A DNA stretch of 64,000 nucleotides from the NCBI RefSeq assembly GCF_019972295.1, contig NZ_BLJA01000001.1, positions 3,798,093 to 3,862,092 on the forward strand, in the 5' to 3' direction. The translations under genes were made by a program, and so were the position numbers. The DNA is from Geobacter sp. AOG2 (GTDB taxonomy: Bacteria > Desulfobacterota > Desulfuromonadia > Geobacterales > Pseudopelobacteraceae). Under the pieces are notes generated by a model. It was not told where the DNA came from. It made no database searches and worked only from the letters and a program-made list of their open reading frames with translations. Of the stretch, positions 1,887 to 54,072 are shown in pieces (the stretch's first letter is position 1; every line of letters begins with the position of its first letter).

Positions 1887-3182
1887 TCATAACGACTCTC
1901 TTTTTAAGCTCATTTGCCAGGGAGGGGGCCAGATCTTCAACTGATGGTTTCCATCACGCCGCCAAATACCAACTTCTTCTTCCCATCTTGGCCACTCGTC
2001 ATTGTAGTACTTATCCATGGAAGGGATATAATTTATACAATTATTTACCATTATCAAGCTTATCAGCATCAGTATCAGGCAGTTGAAAATGGAATTTGCG
2101 CCTTTATTGCCATACGCAGAAACCAAAAAGATCATTATCATGGCACTTGGAGCAAAAATGTAGCGTGGGCCTCCAACACCGTTGATAGATAGCTTGACAG
2201 ATATTGTATAAACAGTGATTGCCGAGAATATGATGAACAACATATCTGTGTTGTTTCGGTGTATTACCAGCAGCGGGAGTATAATCAAGAGCATTACGAA
2301 ACCGGTCAAAAAATATACTGCTACATATTTTTCAAGTACGGGCATATTCCATAACGTGATCATAAGATGCATTGTCATTTTATCTATTTTATCAACAAAA
2401 TCATAATTAAGCGTATTATCGCTGGCCAACAATTTACTTGTTAACAAGGTTGTTTGTTTAATTATTTTAACATAAGTTTCATCGACAGATATGAAACGTT
2501 CTGTTAATTCATTAGCATTATGCAATAGGGTATATACGAATACTGATATCTGCAAGATTGAGCATGATGTTAAACAATAAGCATATGTCATATATTTTTT
2601 CGATTTTGTTTCGACTGCCTTGATAATAAACAATGGCGTCATAATGCAGGAGAGTATTCCGGTCAAACCGGCCAATGCTAATAGTGACAATTCTGTTTTA
2701 GATATCCTGTCATTTTCAGTTGGATATTTATCCAATAAAATAATGACTGTTAATATACAAAGCCAATATTGTATTCCAACTGTTGTCAGCCATATCTGAC
2801 CCGGACAAAGCAGAGGGAAAGAGATGGCAATCAAATATCGCTTGAAATGCGTATTAAATAGTGAAATGTCACTCCACACAACATAGAGCGACACAGATAG
2901 TTGTAAAATTAAGGCCTCGTAGGTTGTTATCAAGGGTGAAATTTCCAGAGGGAATAGGGCTGCTAATGAAGTAGAAATAACATTATATAATGCGTAATAA
3001 CCAAAATGCGGCGTTAACAGATAATGCAGAAATGAATTATTGAATGCAAATTGGAAGAAAATGGAACCCTCTTCGGCGTAAAAACGCGGATGATACAACA
3101 ATTGGGGCTTGCGAAAAATGGTCGCAGCAAAAACTGCTATTGTCATAAGGATATTCGGTATATTGCTTCTAAAACTAATCAT
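1887..3182 (-). CDS. AT-rich multispanning membrane protein, unknown function
   Basis: The 431-residue product has roughly ten hydrophobic segments and an N-terminal PRFYAEEGSIFF motif of the kind seen in uncharacterised membrane proteins of polysaccharide or lipid-glycan loci. I cannot assign a reaction. Base composition is strikingly AT-rich against GC-rich neighbours, suggesting acquisition by transfer. It stands alone, convergent with the MBL gene. Its upstream region carries a 14-bp inverted repeat (3207-3249) and copy 1 of the composite terminator/palindrome element. Confidence 0.65.
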   Translation of the reverse strand: MISFRSNIPNILMTIAVFAATIFRKPQLLYHPRFYAEEGSIFFQFAFNNSFLHYLLTPHFGYYALYNVISTSLAALFPLEISPLITTYEALILQLSVSLYVVWSDISLFNTHFKRYLIAISFPLLCPGQIWLTTVGIQYWLCILTVIILLDKYPTENDRISKTELSLLALAGLTGILSCIMTPLFIIKAVETKSKKYMTYAYCLTSCSILQISVFVYTLLHNANELTERFISVDETYVKIIKQTTLLTSKLLASDNTLNYDFVDKIDKMTMHLMITLWNMPVLEKYVAVYFLTGFVMLLIILPLLVIHRNNTDMLFIIFSAITVYTISVKLSINGVGGPRYIFAPSAMIMIFLVSAYGNKGANSIFNCLILMLISLIMVNNCINYIPSMDKYYNDEWPRWEEEVGIWRRDGNHQLKIWPPPWQMSLKRESL

Positions 3183-3249: not shown

Positions 3250-3309
3250 CCTTATGCGTTTTCCGGCATTGCCTCCGACCCCTACACCCCCTTCTACTCC
3301 CCGCCCCCG

Positions 3310-3476
3310 CAAATTTCAACCGTAAAATCAGCATGTTAAAAAAATTAACACTATTGCAAAAGTGTTAAAAAAATTACCATTCCGGGCCATCCCGCCACAT
3401 CCCACTCAACCCCCCGACATCACACAAAAAAAGAAACCCGGACCACTACCGGATGTCTCTCTTTGTATCATTTTGA
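3310..3476 (-). repeat. Composite element copy 1 (TCAAAAWGATACAAA, terminator, tandem TGTTAA-N5-TTAACA)
   Basis: Read on the minus strand, the copy starts with TCAAAATGATACAAA (3476-3462). An imperfect 10-bp hairpin with a T-rich tail follows (3455-3428), then GTGTGATGTCGG. Two AT-palindromes follow: a perfect TGTTAA-N5-TTAACA at 3334-3350 and an imperfect one starting at 3363, 29 nt apart. It ends in CTGATTTTACGGTTG. The same order recurs at 27963-28116 and 50599-50769. It probably terminates transcription coming from the right and provides a regulated promoter region for the membrane gene. Confidence 0.7.
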
Positions 3477-3610
3477 CCCAACGTCGCCCGAATCCTGAAT
3501 GCACGCGATGGTCAAATCCCGGCCAATTCAGATATTGCCACCGGAAACACCTGGGGCTATAGTTACTCCGTATCCCGGATTCTCCAACGCGCTCTCCCAA
3601 AGGATAACCC

Positions 3611-5541: not shown

Positions 5542-6360
5542 ATGAAACCCAGCCATACTTTCTGGAACGACGCCGATCTGCCGTTTGTGGAAATGCGCCG
5601 CACGCTGCGGAGCACCGTGTCCTATACCGCGCACTGCCACCGGGAGTTCTGTGTCGGCGCGGTCACCGAGGGCGTCACCCTGACGACGATCCGGGATACG
5701 GGGTATGCCGCGTCCCCGGGCTCGCTCGTCCTCATCGCCCCGGAATCGGTGCACAGTTGCAACCCCCCGGCGGGCGCGGCCCGCTCCTACATCATGGCGT
5801 ACCTGGATGTGCGGTGGTGCCGATCCGTCCAGGAGTCGTTATTCGGCCCGCTGGAGAGGTTCCTCTCCCCTGTTCCGGTCCTCCTGGAAAACGAAGCCCT
5901 GTTCGCTGCCTTCCTTGAGTTGGCGGACCTTCTCGCCGGTAATGCCTCGTCCCGGGAAAAGACCGTGGGGCTGACCAGGTTTGCCGGCGACCTCTTCGCC
6001 GCGGCCTGCGACCCGGTCGAGGCCCGTGACGAAGAGGTGTCCGAAGGTATTATTCGCGAGGTCAGGAATTATTTGGCGCAGCGGCCCGAGCGGAACATAA
6101 GCCTGGACGAACTGGCCGCCACCTTTCGCTGCAACCCCTGCCACCTGCTGCGCAGTTTCAAGAAGTTTGTGGGCCTGCCGCCCCACGCCTACATGCTGAT
6201 CGCCCGTATCGAGCGGGCCAAGCAGCTCCTGCTGGACGGCGTCCCCGTGTCCCGCGTCGCCGTGGAGACCGGTTTTGCCGATCAGAGCCATTTCCACCGG
6301 GTCTTTCGCCGCACCCTTGCCGCTACCCCCCGCCAGTATCAGCACGGTTTCGTCAAATAA
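5542..6360 (+). CDS. AraC family transcriptional regulator
   Basis: The 272-residue regulator has an N-terminal cupin-like sensing domain (HCHREFCVGAV at about residue 32). The C-terminal double helix-turn-helix is recognisable from DELAATFRCNPCHLLRSFKK and GFADQSHFHRVFRR. The ATG at 5542 begins MKPSHTFW, the usual start for amino-acid-type AraC/LysE pairs. It lies 107 nt upstream of a LysE-type exporter on the same strand, so it probably controls that exporter. The ligand is unknown. Confidence 0.88.
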   Translation: MKPSHTFWNDADLPFVEMRRTLRSTVSYTAHCHREFCVGAVTEGVTLTTIRDTGYAASPGSLVLIAPESVHSCNPPAGAARSYIMAYLDVRWCRSVQESLFGPLERFLSPVPVLLENEALFAAFLELADLLAGNASSREKTVGLTRFAGDLFAAACDPVEARDEEVSEGIIREVRNYLAQRPERNISLDELAATFRCNPCHLLRSFKKFVGLPPHAYMLIARIERAKQLLLDGVPVSRVAVETGFADQSHFHRVFRRTLAATPRQYQHGFVK

Positions 6361-27354: not shown

Positions 27355-27443
27355 GGAACATCGTTGAGGAGTGACATTGGGGGATACGTTTCGTAGAGTC
27401 GCAAAAGCCACATAAACGGTGTAATTCGTTACGCCCCGTTATT

Positions 27444-27490
27444 ATACAAAGAGAGGCCCCCGGATCAGTCCCGCGGGCCTCTCTTTGTAT
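27444..27490. terminator. Bidirectional terminator, 16-bp perfect stem
   Basis: ATACAAAGAGAGGCCC (27444-27459) pairs without mismatch to GGGCCTCTCTTTGTAT (27475-27490). It lies between the converging hemerythrin and the small minus-strand gene. Its ATACAAAGAGAGGC arm resembles the start of the composite element, suggesting related terminator stock. Confidence 0.9.
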
Positions 27491-27571
27491 GATTCTGGAC
27501 AACGCTTCACCCACCCGCGGTCCGTCTTCCCTTCCGGTTCTCCTTCGTCTTTTCTGAACCTTGAAACTTTT

Positions 27572-27853
27572 TTACCAGTAAATCTCTTTGTTTATGTTTT
27601 TTATGGCATCGTTCCAGCTCAGCTTTTTTAAAAAGGGGTGCCAATTCCGGGGGGCGTTGAAAAACAAGCAGTCGCCTTTTTTCCAGATCGGCACCACGGT
27701 GCCGGCAAGACCGGCGCCTTGTGTGTGCGTTTGCAATTCTTTAATGATCTCCTGTTGCTCTTCATTGTTTTTAGAGCCAAAAGCAGGGTCCAGTGGGAAT
27801 ATTATAAGGTCTGCGCCCTGTTCTTTCACATGGGCCACTTTGAATCTCGGCAT
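27572..27853 (-). CDS. Small AT-rich orphan protein, unknown function
   Basis: The 93-residue soluble protein has a central helical part (EEQQEIIKELQTH) and aromatic patches (RNWHPFLKKLSWNDA) but no domain I recognise. ATG 27853 is preceded by AGGAAAGGTG; a GTG at 27862 is also in frame. The gene is AT-richer than its surroundings and sits directly downstream of composite element copy 2, as the membrane gene at 1887 does for copy 1. A transferred accessory gene is likely. Confidence 0.6.
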   Translation of the reverse strand: MPRFKVAHVKEQGADLIIFPLDPAFGSKNNEEQQEIIKELQTHTQGAGLAGTVVPIWKKGDCLFFNAPRNWHPFLKKLSWNDAIKNINKEIYW

Positions 27854-27962
27854 CGGTTTCACCTTTCCTCATACGCAGCCTGAGCTGCTATTGACATATC
27901 ATCTGATTTGTTTCCGCGTCCACATGGATAATGTAATATATTCAGTTTACACAATACATATT

Positions 27963-28116
27963 CAATTTTCAATAGAAAAAACAGTATGTTAAAAAAATTA
28001 ACACTCTCGATTTTGTGAAAGATATGACCGTAAACGGAGCTGTGTGCGAACTAACCGTTTTCACATGAAAAAAGCTCCCGGAACATTCCCGGAAGCCTTA
28101 GTTTGTATCATTTTGA
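27963..28116 (-). repeat. Composite element copy 2
   Basis: On the minus strand: TCAAAATGATACAAA (28116-28102), then a GC-rich hairpin built on CTTCCGGGAA and TTCCGGGAGC with T-run, then CATGTGAAAACGG. AGTG next to a single perfect TGTTAA-N5-TTAACA (27987-28003) follows, then CTGTTTTTTCTATTGAAAATTG. Order and spacing match copies 1 and 3. It lies between the PilZ gene (upstream) and the 93-residue orphan (downstream). Confidence 0.7.
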
Positions 28117-28170
28117 TAGAGCCGCAACGACCGTGCACATTTCTCTCTACCGCTGGCTCCTCCTGCCAGG

Positions 28171-50479: not shown

Positions 50480-50598
50480 CGGGTGCATCCGGGAAGATGG
50501 CTGTCCCGGAATTCCCAGGGGTGCGGTAGTCCCATAGCTCCCCAGGAAGAGGGGCCGATACGGGGCGCATGCAATGCACCCCTAAGTGTATGATTGCG

Positions 50599-50769
50599 TC
50601 AAAAAGATACAAACAGAGGCCTCCGGAAAAGTTCCGGGGGTTATTTTTTGTGTGATAACGGTGGGTTCGGGTAAAAGAGGCCGGAATGGTCTTTTTATGT
50701 TAATTTTTTTAACATTTTTAAAAAAGTGTTAATTATTTTAACATATTGATTTTTCGATTGATTTTTGTA
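50599..50769 (+). repeat. Composite element copy 3 (plus strand)
   Basis: Order: TCAAAAAGATACAAA (50599-50613), CCTCCGGAA/TTCCGGGGG hairpin (50620-50640) with T-run, GTGTGATAACGG. Two perfect TGTTAA-N5-TTAACA palindromes follow at 50698-50714 and 50727-50743, 29 nt apart, then ATTGATTTTTCGATTG. It starts the low-GC block and lies about 130 nt upstream of the riboswitch candidate. Part A probably terminates the glycine-zipper gene transcript. Confidence 0.75.
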
Positions 50770-50899
50770 TTTACATCATATAGAGGATTAAGCGGGTAAC
50801 GCTAAAATACTTAAATTTTATAGGCCTCTACCTCTCTGCGTTGTAAAAACCAGTGTCATGGAAAAGGAGAAAGTAACAAGCCTCAAGCTGGACATATCC

Positions 50900-51012
50900 G
50901 TATTCCCGATAAAGCCTAACTCTCCGTGAGGAGGGGGCGGAAAGCTACGGGTCTTCGCTATGAAGATGGCCGAACTGCCGAAGGAGATTTCTTCTTGTAG
51001 TTCGGCCATTTT
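50900..51012 (+). ncRNA. GEMM-I (cyclic dinucleotide) riboswitch candidate with intrinsic terminator
   Basis: The core reads AAAGCCTAAC, a short stem capped by a GTGA (GNRA) tetraloop, then GGGCGGAAAGCTACGGGTC, a variable stem, and GATGGCCGAACTGCCGAAGG. This is the order and sequence style of GEMM-I aptamers (c-di-GMP; in Geobacter relatives also 3'3'-cGAMP). ATGGCCGAACT (50966-50976) can instead pair with AGTTCGGCCAT (50999-51009), followed by TTTT, giving a terminator that shares bases with the aptamer. The next gene is a 38-residue zinc-ribbon protein with a MITE in between. Ligand and folding are inferred; no covariance model was run. Confidence 0.65.
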
Positions 51013-51386: not shown

Positions 51387-51465
51387 GAGTTTGGTTCTAA
51401 ACCACCATTTTTGCTATGGATGGCACCTTTACAGTAGAAGCAGCATAATCCACAAGGAGGATGCA

Positions 51466-52098
51466 ATGGGATTTTTTTCGAAGGCATATGAACCTGGAGG
51501 TCGACACCACATACGTATTACTGACGATAGTTTCGCAAAGGCAAATAAATTGGTTAAGGAAGATAGTGAATATAAAGAAATATACAAGACTATTGCTAAA
51601 GACAATGAATGTTTACAGTATCAAGCTCACGATTTTCCTGTAATTGAAATATTGGGTAGTTTCATGTTGAGTTACCATTTAGAAGAAGAACGGCTAGGTA
51701 TTCCTGAAAATCTAAGAGCCGCTAACATTGAGCTTGGAAGGAAAGATCAAGTTGAATTTAGTAAATTTGTGGATAGATTTAATGAGAAAATAGATGCAAA
51801 GGCGGACAGGAAACAAGCTGCCTGGGAAGAGAAGGGAATAGGTGGTAAGTTATTTAGTATGGCAGCTGGGGTTGCCGTCAAGGGAATTGCAGCGGTAGCA
51901 ACGGGCAAATCAGAAGACCTTAGGACGTATGAGAAGTTTTTCTCTGACTATATATCTGGCGATTCACCAAAGGCTAAAGAATACATTCACCAATTTGCAA
52001 TACAATTTGGACCATCAGATGAGGGGGTCCTAGCGGTTTCTAACGCGATTAGAAGAAGCTACTGGATGGCTGAATTTGCTAAGTATAATAGAAGTTGA
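51466..52098 (+). CDS. Low-GC soluble protein, unknown function
   Basis: The 210-residue protein starts MGFFSKAYEPGGRHHIRITD and is mostly helical. A glycine/alanine-rich segment (GGKLFSMAAGVAVKGIAAVA, about residues 125-145) might contact a membrane. No family is recognised. AAGGAGGATGCA gives a good ribosome-binding site for ATG 51466; the frame extends further left but without start signals. With the zinc-ribbon gene it forms a two-gene cargo between the two MITEs. Confidence 0.6.
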   Translation: MGFFSKAYEPGGRHHIRITDDSFAKANKLVKEDSEYKEIYKTIAKDNECLQYQAHDFPVIEILGSFMLSYHLEEERLGIPENLRAANIELGRKDQVEFSKFVDRFNEKIDAKADRKQAAWEEKGIGGKLFSMAAGVAVKGIAAVATGKSEDLRTYEKFFSDYISGDSPKAKEYIHQFAIQFGPSDEGVLAVSNAIRRSYWMAEFAKYNRS

Positions 52099-52198: not shown

Positions 52199-52286
52199 AA
52201 TATGGGGACAGGCTACTTATTGAGGTGTCAACATGCCGAGGATAGCAAGAGGTTTCAAATGGCAATAAGTAGCCTGTCCCCATATT
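52199..52286 (+). mobile_element. 88-nt MITE with perfect 24-bp terminal inverted repeats
   Basis: AATATGGGGACAGGCTACTT (first 20 of 24) at 52199 is matched exactly by the inverted copy at 52263-52286. The centre starts ATGCCGAGGATAGCAAGAGG, again RAYT-like (MPRIARG). The perfect ends suggest more recent movement than the 51131 copy. Both copies are followed by GATGTTC. Confidence 0.85.
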
Positions 52287-52320
52287 GATGTTCCGGGTAA
52301 TTCATTTTAAAGGATCAAAA

Positions 52321-54072
52321 ATGTCATTCCAAACACCAATTACAATTGCCAATGCTATAGAGGATGTTGAGTATAATAGGCTTCTCTTGCCTGCAATTCA
52401 AAGAGAATTTGTTTGGTCAAATTCACAGATTGAGTGGTTGTTTGACTCTATAATGCGTCACTACCCAATTAGTTCTTTCTTGTTTTGGAAAGTTGAAGGA
52501 GAGACAAAAAGTCAGTATAAGTTTTATAGCTTCCTCAATAACTACCGAGAGAGATATCAGACACATAATGCTGAATTTAGCACTAACGGTGTTAACGATT
52601 TCATGGCGGTCCTTGATGGGCAGCAAAGACTTGCATCAATATATATTGGCCTGAAGGGGAGTTATGCCTACAAGATGCCACGGCTTTGGTGGAATAATGA
52701 TGAATACAGCATTCCCACAAGGCTCCTTTATCTCAACATACTAACGCCTTTAAATGATGAAGAAGATGGTAGAGTGTATGATTTTAAATTTCTAACCAGA
52801 GACGAATATAGTCAAGATAAAAGAAAGTGGTTTAAGGTTGGTGATATATTAAACCTCAAAAGCCTTTTTGAATTTAATAAGTATTTAGATGAAAATAGTT
52901 ATAAGGATAATGAATTTAGCTATGAGACCCTGTCTAGGTTGCAAGAATCAATACATACTGATAGAATGATTAACTATTTTCTCGAAAAAGAACAAAATAT
53001 AGATAAAGCTCTTAATATTTTTATTAGGATTAATAGCGGGGGAGAGCCTCTTAATTTTTCCGACTTGCTTATGTCTATTGCTATAGCAAATTGGTCAAAG
53101 AAAGATGCTCGCAAAGAACTGAATTTATTGGTAGATGAAATTAGAGACAAAGGTTTCTTTATTAACAAAGATTTAATATTAAAGACTTTCCTCGTTCTTT
53201 ATAGTAACGACATTAGATTTAAAGTGACAAATTTCTCTAAGGGCAACGCTCAAGATTTTGAAGAAAAATGGGATAATATTAAGTGTTCATTTCATAGTGT
53301 ATTTGATTTGATTAAATCATTCGGATTTACAGAAACCACACTGACATCTAAAAACGCTATTATTCCTATTATATACTATCTTTATCACAAGAACATTTAC
53401 ACTGATTTTCACAGAAAAAAATGTTATGAGGCAGACAGGAATGTCATTAAGAAGTGGCTCCATGTTGTTTTAATAAAGAGAACTTTCGGCGGACAAGCAG
53501 ACGCCATACTATCAAAGATAAGAAATGTTTTTACTGACGATATAGGTATAGAAAAAATTAAGCTGTCAATTCAGGAGTTTCCTCATGACTTGATTGTCAA
53601 GGAATTGCGTGGCACTACAAAAGACATGACATTTGATGAAGATTATATCGATAAGCTATTACAAATTCAAAAAGATGATTCTCTATGTTTCTCAATACTT
53701 GCAGTACTTTACCCTCACCTAGACTATAGGAATGGAGACTTTCACAAAGACCACATATTCCCAGAATCTATGTTTATGAAGAGAAAATTAACCAAACTTG
53801 GAATAGGTGATGTTGATTTTGAGTTTTACTTGGACCGTAACAATTACAATGGTATAGCTAACCTACAATTACTAGACAGCAATGAAAATATGTCAAAACA
53901 AGATATCGACCTTAAGACGTGGGTATTGGGCGAGTCCAAGAAAAAAAACCTTACTCAGAAAGAGTTCTGTGTGAGGCATTTGATACCTGAGCTGCTTGAA
54001 GTTTCTCAATTCAAAGAATTCATCTACGCCAGAAAGGAGCTTCTCAAAGGCTTGCTACTTCAACTCGCTTAG
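52321..54072 (+). CDS. GmrSD-like DUF262/DUF1524 nuclease protein
   Basis: The 583-residue protein has an N-terminal DUF262 (ParB/Srx-like) domain: LPAIQREFVWSNSQIEWLF, PISSFLFWKV and VLDGQQRLASIYIG. The C-terminal DUF1524 HNH-type segment has HKDHIFPESM and GIANLQLLDSNENMS. This fusion is the layout of single-chain GmrSD-type modification-dependent restriction enzymes; related DUF262 proteins occur in other defence systems. AAAGGATCAAAA precedes the ATG at 52321; a start at 52285 lies in the MITE. AT-rich. MITE copies or fragments lie at both ends. Confidence 0.82.
   Translation: MSFQTPITIANAIEDVEYNRLLLPAIQREFVWSNSQIEWLFDSIMRHYPISSFLFWKVEGETKSQYKFYSFLNNYRERYQTHNAEFSTNGVNDFMAVLDGQQRLASIYIGLKGSYAYKMPRLWWNNDEYSIPTRLLYLNILTPLNDEEDGRVYDFKFLTRDEYSQDKRKWFKVGDILNLKSLFEFNKYLDENSYKDNEFSYETLSRLQESIHTDRMINYFLEKEQNIDKALNIFIRINSGGEPLNFSDLLMSIAIANWSKKDARKELNLLVDEIRDKGFFINKDLILKTFLVLYSNDIRFKVTNFSKGNAQDFEEKWDNIKCSFHSVFDLIKSFGFTETTLTSKNAIIPIIYYLYHKNIYTDFHRKKCYEADRNVIKKWLHVVLIKRTFGGQADAILSKIRNVFTDDIGIEKIKLSIQEFPHDLIVKELRGTTKDMTFDEDYIDKLLQIQKDDSLCFSILAVLYPHLDYRNGDFHKDHIFPESMFMKRKLTKLGIGDVDFEFYLDRNNYNGIANLQLLDSNENMSKQDIDLKTWVLGESKKKNLTQKEFCVRHLIPELLEVSQFKEFIYARKELLKGLLLQLA

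Follow-up and report, generated by a model that had tools for sequence, protein, structure and literature searches.

A dispersed family of terminator-plus-promoter elements in Oryzomonas, probably a shared and insulated entry promoter for hypervariable gene slots

It is an open question how acquired genes, those for defence in particular, come to have a promoter that works. The window is a stretch of 64,000 nucleotides, positions 3798093-3862092 of a closed Oryzomonas genome of 3.92 Mb (G000). A first-pass annotation had described three composite copies of one element in the window, each with its parts in the same order, and had read them as an insulated, repressible promoter cassette that collects at acquired genes. 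All three were found again at their positions with the parts in place. They belong to a dispersed family of terminator-plus-promoter modules of about 155-190 bp, and a single module, copied over the genome, seems to provide many variable slots with terminator, operator and promoter.

Read along the strand of the element, the parts are an imperfect dyad (P1), a covarying hairpin with a T-run, the sequence GTGTGANNNCGG, one or two copies of the palindrome TGTTAA-N5-TTAACA (P2; about 29 bp apart if there are two) and a sigma70-like promoter. The borders of the original description had to be moved at both ends. Its first motif, TCAAAAWGATACAAA, is present but forms only the right part of a wider dyad such as TGTATCAAAATGATACA; the tail TTGA/TTG is also there but is the -35 region, and another 15-25 nt up to the -10 belong to each element. 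The window contains additionally a fourth, partial copy at 27406-27497 (-), beyond the three described before. The features of the window are:

3288..3480, minus strand: copy 1, full element (nhmmer 135.8 bits; left-half covariance model 73.6 bits)
3464..3480 (core 3462-3476), minus strand: imperfect P1 dyad of copy 1, TGGGTCAAAATGATACA (motif scan, alignment)
3425..3459, minus strand: hairpin and T-run of copy 1 (read from the sequence; family covariation)
3363..3379, minus strand: distal P2 of copy 1, one mismatch (pattern scan)
3334..3350, minus strand: proximal P2 of copy 1 (pattern scan)
3291..3319, minus strand: predicted promoter of copy 1, TTGAAA-N17-TAGAAG
1887..3182, minus strand: AT-rich 431-aa ORF behind copy 1, no Pfam match
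27946..28118, minus strand: copy 2, full element with one P2 (profile 108 bits)
28068..28099, minus strand: hairpin and T-run of copy 2 (read from the sequence)
27987..28003, minus strand: P2 of copy 2 (pattern scan)
27944..27972, minus strand: predicted promoter of copy 2, TTGAAA-N17-TAAACT
27572..27853, minus strand: 93-aa ORF behind copy 2, no Pfam match
27406..27497, minus strand: partial element behind the 93-aa ORF, P1 and hairpin only (nhmmer 39.7 bits; covariance model 42.8 bits)
50595..50784, plus strand: copy 3, full element (blastn, profile, covariance model)
50595..50611, plus strand: imperfect P1 dyad of copy 3
50618..50650, plus strand: hairpin and T-run of copy 3
50698..50714, plus strand: distal P2 of copy 3 (pattern scan)
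50727..50743, plus strand: proximal P2 of copy 3 (pattern scan)
50758..50786, plus strand: predicted promoter of copy 3, TTGATT followed by TATAGA (spacer 15, the choice of the script) or TAGAGG (spacer 17)
50905..50983, plus strand, the same as copy 3: c-di-GMP-I-GGC riboswitch RF03167 behind copy 3 (62.1 bits)
51391..52098, plus strand: 235-aa ORF behind copy 3
52285..54072, plus strand: 595-aa ORF with GmrSD_N behind copy 3 (Pfam, scanned from 52453)

The riboswitch candidate that had been placed behind copy 3 turned out to be RF03167 on the same strand and lies in the presumed leader. At this locus a second-messenger riboswitch stands ahead of a restriction-like GmrSD_N gene. Copy 3 has a second terminator-like hairpin, AAAGAGGCCGGAATGGTCTTTTT (50674-50696, +), immediately ahead of its distal P2, and similar sequence occurs in other copies with the longer P1-P2 spacing. 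The promoter of copy 3 was missed by a simple consensus promoter scan.

The size of the family was determined with an nhmmer profile built from 24 copies of the own genome. In 318 kb of own loci it gave 32 matches of at least 40 bits, 24 of them copies that had served as profile input, and none in the reversed sequence; on control loci from genus g10, G001 and three other genomes the best score was 14.7 bits. The profile recovered the element in the congeners G002, G003 and G005 and, with two copies, in G004. After removal of overlaps the profile search of the fetched loci of five species yielded 93 full copies (G000 28, G002 21, G003 23, G005 19, G004 2), and the counts of the relatives are lower bounds because their loci were fetched around matches. 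The three copies of the window are real, but they are only three of 28 full copies in their own genome. Besides the full copies the profile search detected 12 that consist of P1 and hairpin only and eight that consist of the P2-promoter part only. A search of the own genome with a left-half covariance model gave 36 places at E <=0.01, and comparison of positions left six strong places outside full elements, that at 27406-27497 in the window included. With copy 3 as blastn query 22 own-genome places including itself were obtained, several of them 75-82% identical over nearly the full length. Copy 1 matched copy 3 at 75% identity, and copy 2, absent from these matches, aligned over 62 nt with a copy that has one P2 (81% identity). 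These identities fit the earlier remark that the copies are not a recent duplication.

Simple patterns were also counted. P2 with up to two mismatches occurs ten times in the window against 0.67 expected, a number reached by none of 100 shuffles. The sequence TCAAAANGATACA (<=2 mismatches) followed by P2 (<=1) at 75-160 nt was found three times in the window and not once in each of 100 dinucleotide shuffles. The exact P2 is present 44 times in the own genome versus zero for the reversed pattern. In a search of 97 genomes, the own included, G002 contained 22, G003 29, G005 19, G004 one and G001 none; two of the four genomes of genus g10 contained 8 and 10, within other repeats, and the remaining genomes 0 or 1 (reversed control 0 to 2). 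The palindromes of genus g10 (G063, G066) were considered as copies of the element and rejected: they are parts of other repeats, and those loci match the element at best with 14.7 bits. In L057, L058, L061 and L062, from two genomes of this genus of another family, the same palindrome recurs in another context, with repeats about 64 bp or 129 bp apart. A pattern scan of named genomes located the promoter part in ten stretches, nine from Oryzomonas japonica Red96 and one from a Geobacter MAG. The latter is the sole copy seen outside the genus; it has no clear P1 and reaches 68 bits, its match to the model beginning at position 51.

Some arrangements depart from the single complete element. Two full elements stand in tandem at L024:5459-5611 and 5685-5837 (226 bp start to start) ahead of a caspase-domain gene, and a similar pair of less complete copies is located at L041:9519 and 9698. 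At L034:5060-5221, L054:5207-5366 and L055:5611-5769 three P2 stand alone, with none of the other parts of the element, at intervals of 65-78 bp. By reading, these sites precede an alpha-amylase-like gene in G002 and G005; G000 keeps the sites, and no such gene was called there.

The hairpin was analyzed with 76 of the 93 left halves. The other 17, with a missing right border or an odd length and some without a good hairpin, had been removed by hand, and all covariation figures therefore lean upward. In this set 85.4% of the cells were paired versus 75.6 in shuffles, the covariation was 0.445 versus 0.272 in shuffled and 0.06-0.25 in slid versions, and nine of ten pairs had changed on both sides. 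A G+C hairpin with a T-run, a feature of intrinsic terminators, is present, and some copies, for example that in L031, have no clear one. P1 was also considered as a covarying RNA helix; no such covariation was found for this dyad, and P1 is therefore at most a DNA site. It is located mostly 84-91 or 95-99 nt ahead of the first P2, in two classes about one helical turn apart; in copy 2, with its one P2, the distance is 113. For the orientation of neighboring genes we used ORFs called by in-house scripts instead of a standard caller. The next downstream ORF is on the strand of the element in 66 of 81 full copies. The upstream ORF of full copies is on either strand (49/83), and in many copies the hairpin is therefore unable to act for the gene upstream. 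Of the 12 lone P1-hairpins, nine are preceded by a gene on their own strand, or ten if the 93-aa ORF of the window is counted, where the caller had placed an opposite-strand ORF.

The promoter part has a tight geometry, which could be parsed in 89 of the 93 copies; two without P2 and two without a -35 behind P2 were dropped. The search for the -35 covered 9-21 nt behind P2, and where spacers tied, 17 nt was preferred. The distance from the end of the proximal P2 to the -35 hexamer is 13 or 14 nt in all 89 copies. The hexamer reads TTGAAA in 70, and the spacer to the -10 is 17 in 79 and 16-18 in 86, with 15 in three, copy 3 among these by the choice of the script. The -10 is TAGAAG in 57, and 79 copies match TATAAT at only four of six positions. 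If the start is assumed 7 nt after the -10, the center of P2 falls at -57.9 (sd 0.6), and a second P2, found 28-30 bp further upstream in 42 of 89, near -87. Activators rather than repressors usually bind upstream of the -35, in a class I-like placement. Because P2 keeps a fixed distance to the hexamer, is located upstream of the -35 and is combined with a weak -10, activation from P2 is suggested, and repression appears less likely than activation. Of the cassette as first proposed, the insulated promoter fits the hairpin with T-run, the tight geometry and the same-strand ORF, whereas its repressible character is left unsupported by a P2 near -58/-87 and a weak -10.

The DNA behind the element is AT-rich. 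The G+C content of the 1.5 kb downstream is 0.507 versus 0.600 upstream and is lower in 70 of 89 copies (Wilcoxon p ~2e-11); G004 was excluded from these counts and also from the matched-locus groups and the comparison of element identity. Thirty downstream proteins, chosen mostly for low GC, were analyzed in detail with Pfam. Nine of them carry caspase, TIR+SLOG, AbiEii-type AAA, GmrSD_N, SIR2 (twice, once with NB-ARC), HSDR_N, HNH or AbiU2 domains, which we take to be typical of antiphage systems. The others include TerB, ORC-CDC6-like and UvrD matches, and seven matched nothing in Pfam. One member of this set of thirty, the NERD-UvrD protein of L082, is part of the conserved right flank and not of variable content. 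With PADLOC, 85 upstream proteins gave 80 family names and 84 downstream proteins gave 82 (25 each among the matches listed). Since these counts are alike on both sides, a claim of defence enrichment behind the elements was dropped; defence-like genes are present there, and only their presence is claimed. Some copies stand ahead of genes whose translations, read by eye without a family scan, look like chemoreceptors, lipoproteins, outer-membrane-like or secreted proteins. The annotation had placed copies 1 and 2 upstream of orphan genes, and the ORFs behind both have no Pfam match, but this description is too narrow for the family, as several copies precede ordinary conserved genes.

To compare loci between species, a flank was accepted under strict limits if at least 250 bp matched at 75% no more than 130 nt from the element with at least 350 bp of the other flank at hand. 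Twelve matched-locus groups retained only the upstream flank, six both flanks and five only the downstream flank, the groups overlapping within 18 locus components; one further upstream-only pair failed the limit for the other flank. Looser limits, with within-genome neighbors included, gave 64 upstream-only, 23 downstream-only and 28 both. Between species, the element thus more often keeps its upstream flank while the DNA directly behind it differs, a finding that goes beyond the first-pass annotation. In 25 upstream-only pairs the elements are on average 80.2% identical (66-96) versus 61.4% in 400 unrelated pairs. Three elements with different upstream flanks are followed by relatives of one DUF2726 protein (that in L025), at a distance of about 30 nt in two cases and about 0.9 kb in the third, and those elements share only 64-66% identity. 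Judged from these two sets of identities, the element goes with the place and not with the gene behind it. The idea that it collects at acquired genes holds in that the DNA behind is AT-rich and species-variable, but the element does not travel with these genes and tends to keep its upstream flank.

Single loci illustrate the exchange. At locus 7 the distance from the element to the same right flank is 9.4 kb in G000, 1.9 kb in G002, 2.8 kb in G003 and 4.3 kb in G005. The distances are also unequal at locus 4 (4.7 vs 2.7 kb), locus 6 (3.7 vs 4.1 kb) and locus 8 (5.5 vs 2.5 kb), and at locus 2, with a tRNA-Cys predicted by ARAGORN ahead of the element in both species, 48 bp in G002 stand against 2593 bp in G005. 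ARAGORN was also used to examine a tRNA-bounded island, which was rejected, as no tRNA was detected in nine scanned loci of places 1, 6 and 7. The upstream flank of copy 2, followed by an element, is kept in G002, G003 and G005 and the DNA behind is not; these orthologous elements are only 66% identical, hardly above unrelated copies. For copies 1 and 3 no element-bearing orthologue was found in the relatives, and in G003 the relative of the gene next to copy 1 lacks an element on the corresponding side. Past the 3' end of this G003 gene, on the opposite strand, lies a P1-hairpin half with 36 bits (L148:2784-2853, -). The element is not required for a variable slot: at locus 7 of G001 other DNA of about 2.7 kb separates the same two neighbors, the upstream gene and the right flank, and the profile has no match there; at locus 1 G000 contains variable DNA without an element and G004 has neither.

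We consider it probable that the element as a whole is a dispersed regulatory module composed of terminator, operator and promoter. Judged from its parts, it would serve hypervariable gene slots as a shared, insulated entry promoter, probably one that depends on an activator. The hairpin with its T-run would stop transcription arriving from upstream and so shield the promoter. One or two 17-bp operators, some 58 and 87 nt upstream of the start, would recruit a regulator, most likely an activator, and a weak sigma70-type promoter (typically TTGAAA-N17-TAGAAG) would then transcribe the gene behind. Within Oryzomonas the module seems to mark the left border of many hypervariable slots, and it also stands before some conserved genes. 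As the module tends to stay while the content is replaced, newcomers would come under one insulated control at 20 or so separate places, which may be its benefit. Against this reading, the five downstream-only locus groups show the reverse pattern.

An ordinary regulon would also produce many sites of strict architecture, if an activator or repressor had targets kept by selection and vertical descent and variable genes stood nearby by chance. The six locus groups that keep both flanks, the targets that by eye read like chemoreceptor, lipoprotein and secreted-protein genes and the P2 sites without the rest of the element, such as the three before the alpha-amylase-like gene in G002 and G005, agree with it. 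Several copies are 75-82% alike over nearly their full length, in P1 and the hairpin as well, which is more than shared regulation alone need give, and the DNA behind is AT-rich and species-variable; we therefore regard a regulon as possible but unlikely. No less doubtful is that P2 binds a repressor or a xenogeneic silencer, with the module insulating and silencing foreign genes. This was the view of the first-pass annotation, and AT-rich palindromes beside AT-rich foreign genes would suit it, yet P2 at about -58 and -87 does not cover the region from -35 to +1, and the weak -10 suits activation.

A mobile, MITE-like element that brought the downstream genes along as one unit would account for the many dispersed copies and for their absence at orthologous places (locus 7 in G001 and G004, locus 1 in G000 and G004, the copy 1 side of the gene in G003). 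Its ends would be expected to differ from what is seen: in five copies searched, inverted repeats occur only within P2, the hairpin and inner parts, and none join the ends. In addition, the upstream flank is kept while the content differs, and the docks of related genes, at 64-66% identity, do not share an element, which makes this origin improbable. An integron or its remnant, with Pc-like promoters and cassettes behind them, is a very improbable source. In its favor, the element is followed by attC-like ends at locus 7 and, as judged by eye, in G003 at locus 6, but such ends were seen at these two loci only. IntI exceeds the TIGR02249 cut-off in none of six Oryzomonas genomes, whereas G060 and G066 pass, and a heuristic attC scan of unknown sensitivity returned five rows at four places, of which only L074:7316-7374 was judged attC-like by eye. 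Attention is also drawn to attC-like sites that end the variable DNA at locus 6 (G003) and locus 7, possible integron remnants, at L074:7316-7374, around L074:7850, at L086:9850, at L109:1300 (-) and in L108.

It is conceivable, though we think it improbable, that the end of the element (typically GTAGAAGGG) is a recognized docking point of a decentralized, non-integron capture system that inserts or swaps DNA directly downstream of 20-30 regulated promoters. The DNA captured in this way would be rich in defence-like genes, and REP/RAYT (Y1 transposase) might assist. The REP-like motifs AAGTATACTGTCCCC and TGTAGAATGTAGACCTGACCC were counted 17 times in the 600 nt downstream of 91 elements versus once upstream, with 15 of the 17 in one orientation (for example L024:5611-5685 and L041:9642); the contrast is biased, since the motifs were picked after they had been seen behind elements. 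According to Pfam a Y1 transposase gene stands behind one element, and the REP/Y1 link is a lead only. Since G001 has such a slot in the absence of the element, we take a part of the element in capture as a possibility only.

A shared module makes the common control of acquired genes testable and provides both a pattern for finding untested defence-like genes and a natural set of insulated promoters. As bait for the P2-binding protein the sequence TGTTAATTTTTTTAACA is named. The operator of Rex is TTGTTAA-N4-TTAACAA; it shares the half-site TGTTAA with P2, but its spacer is 4 and that of P2 is 5. Rex as the P2 binder was rejected, as PF06971, its N-terminal domain, had matches in 0 of 14 genomes and in 7 of 14 control genomes. 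From Geobacter genomes multicopy intergenic families have been described, some palindromic and some read as regulatory sites (PMC2700814, PMC2996986). In the main texts of these two papers, where TGTTAA and TTAACA have no occurrence, such families appear likewise dispersed and intergenic, in the same order as Oryzomonas; they are set beside the element by description only, and the element family might be related to one of them. A literature search found no description of this element.

In an integron the cassettes fall under the Pc of one platform. As in the system of Pc and attI (PMC11014356), one fixed promoter stands ahead of exchangeable, mostly foreign genes. The element differs in its many dispersed copies, its own terminator and operators, the lack of an IntI over the cut-off and the lack of a general attC. 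It resembles Pc in its proposed function, but it is not filed as an integron because no integrase exceeds the cut-off in Oryzomonas and attC-like ends are confined to two loci. The defence-carrying integration hotspots of E. coli likewise show conserved flanks around variable, defence-bearing content, at least in the main text of PMC10121019, in which the word "promoter" has zero occurrences. According to that text the hotspots are defined by flanking core genes, whereas here a shared regulatory module forms one border.
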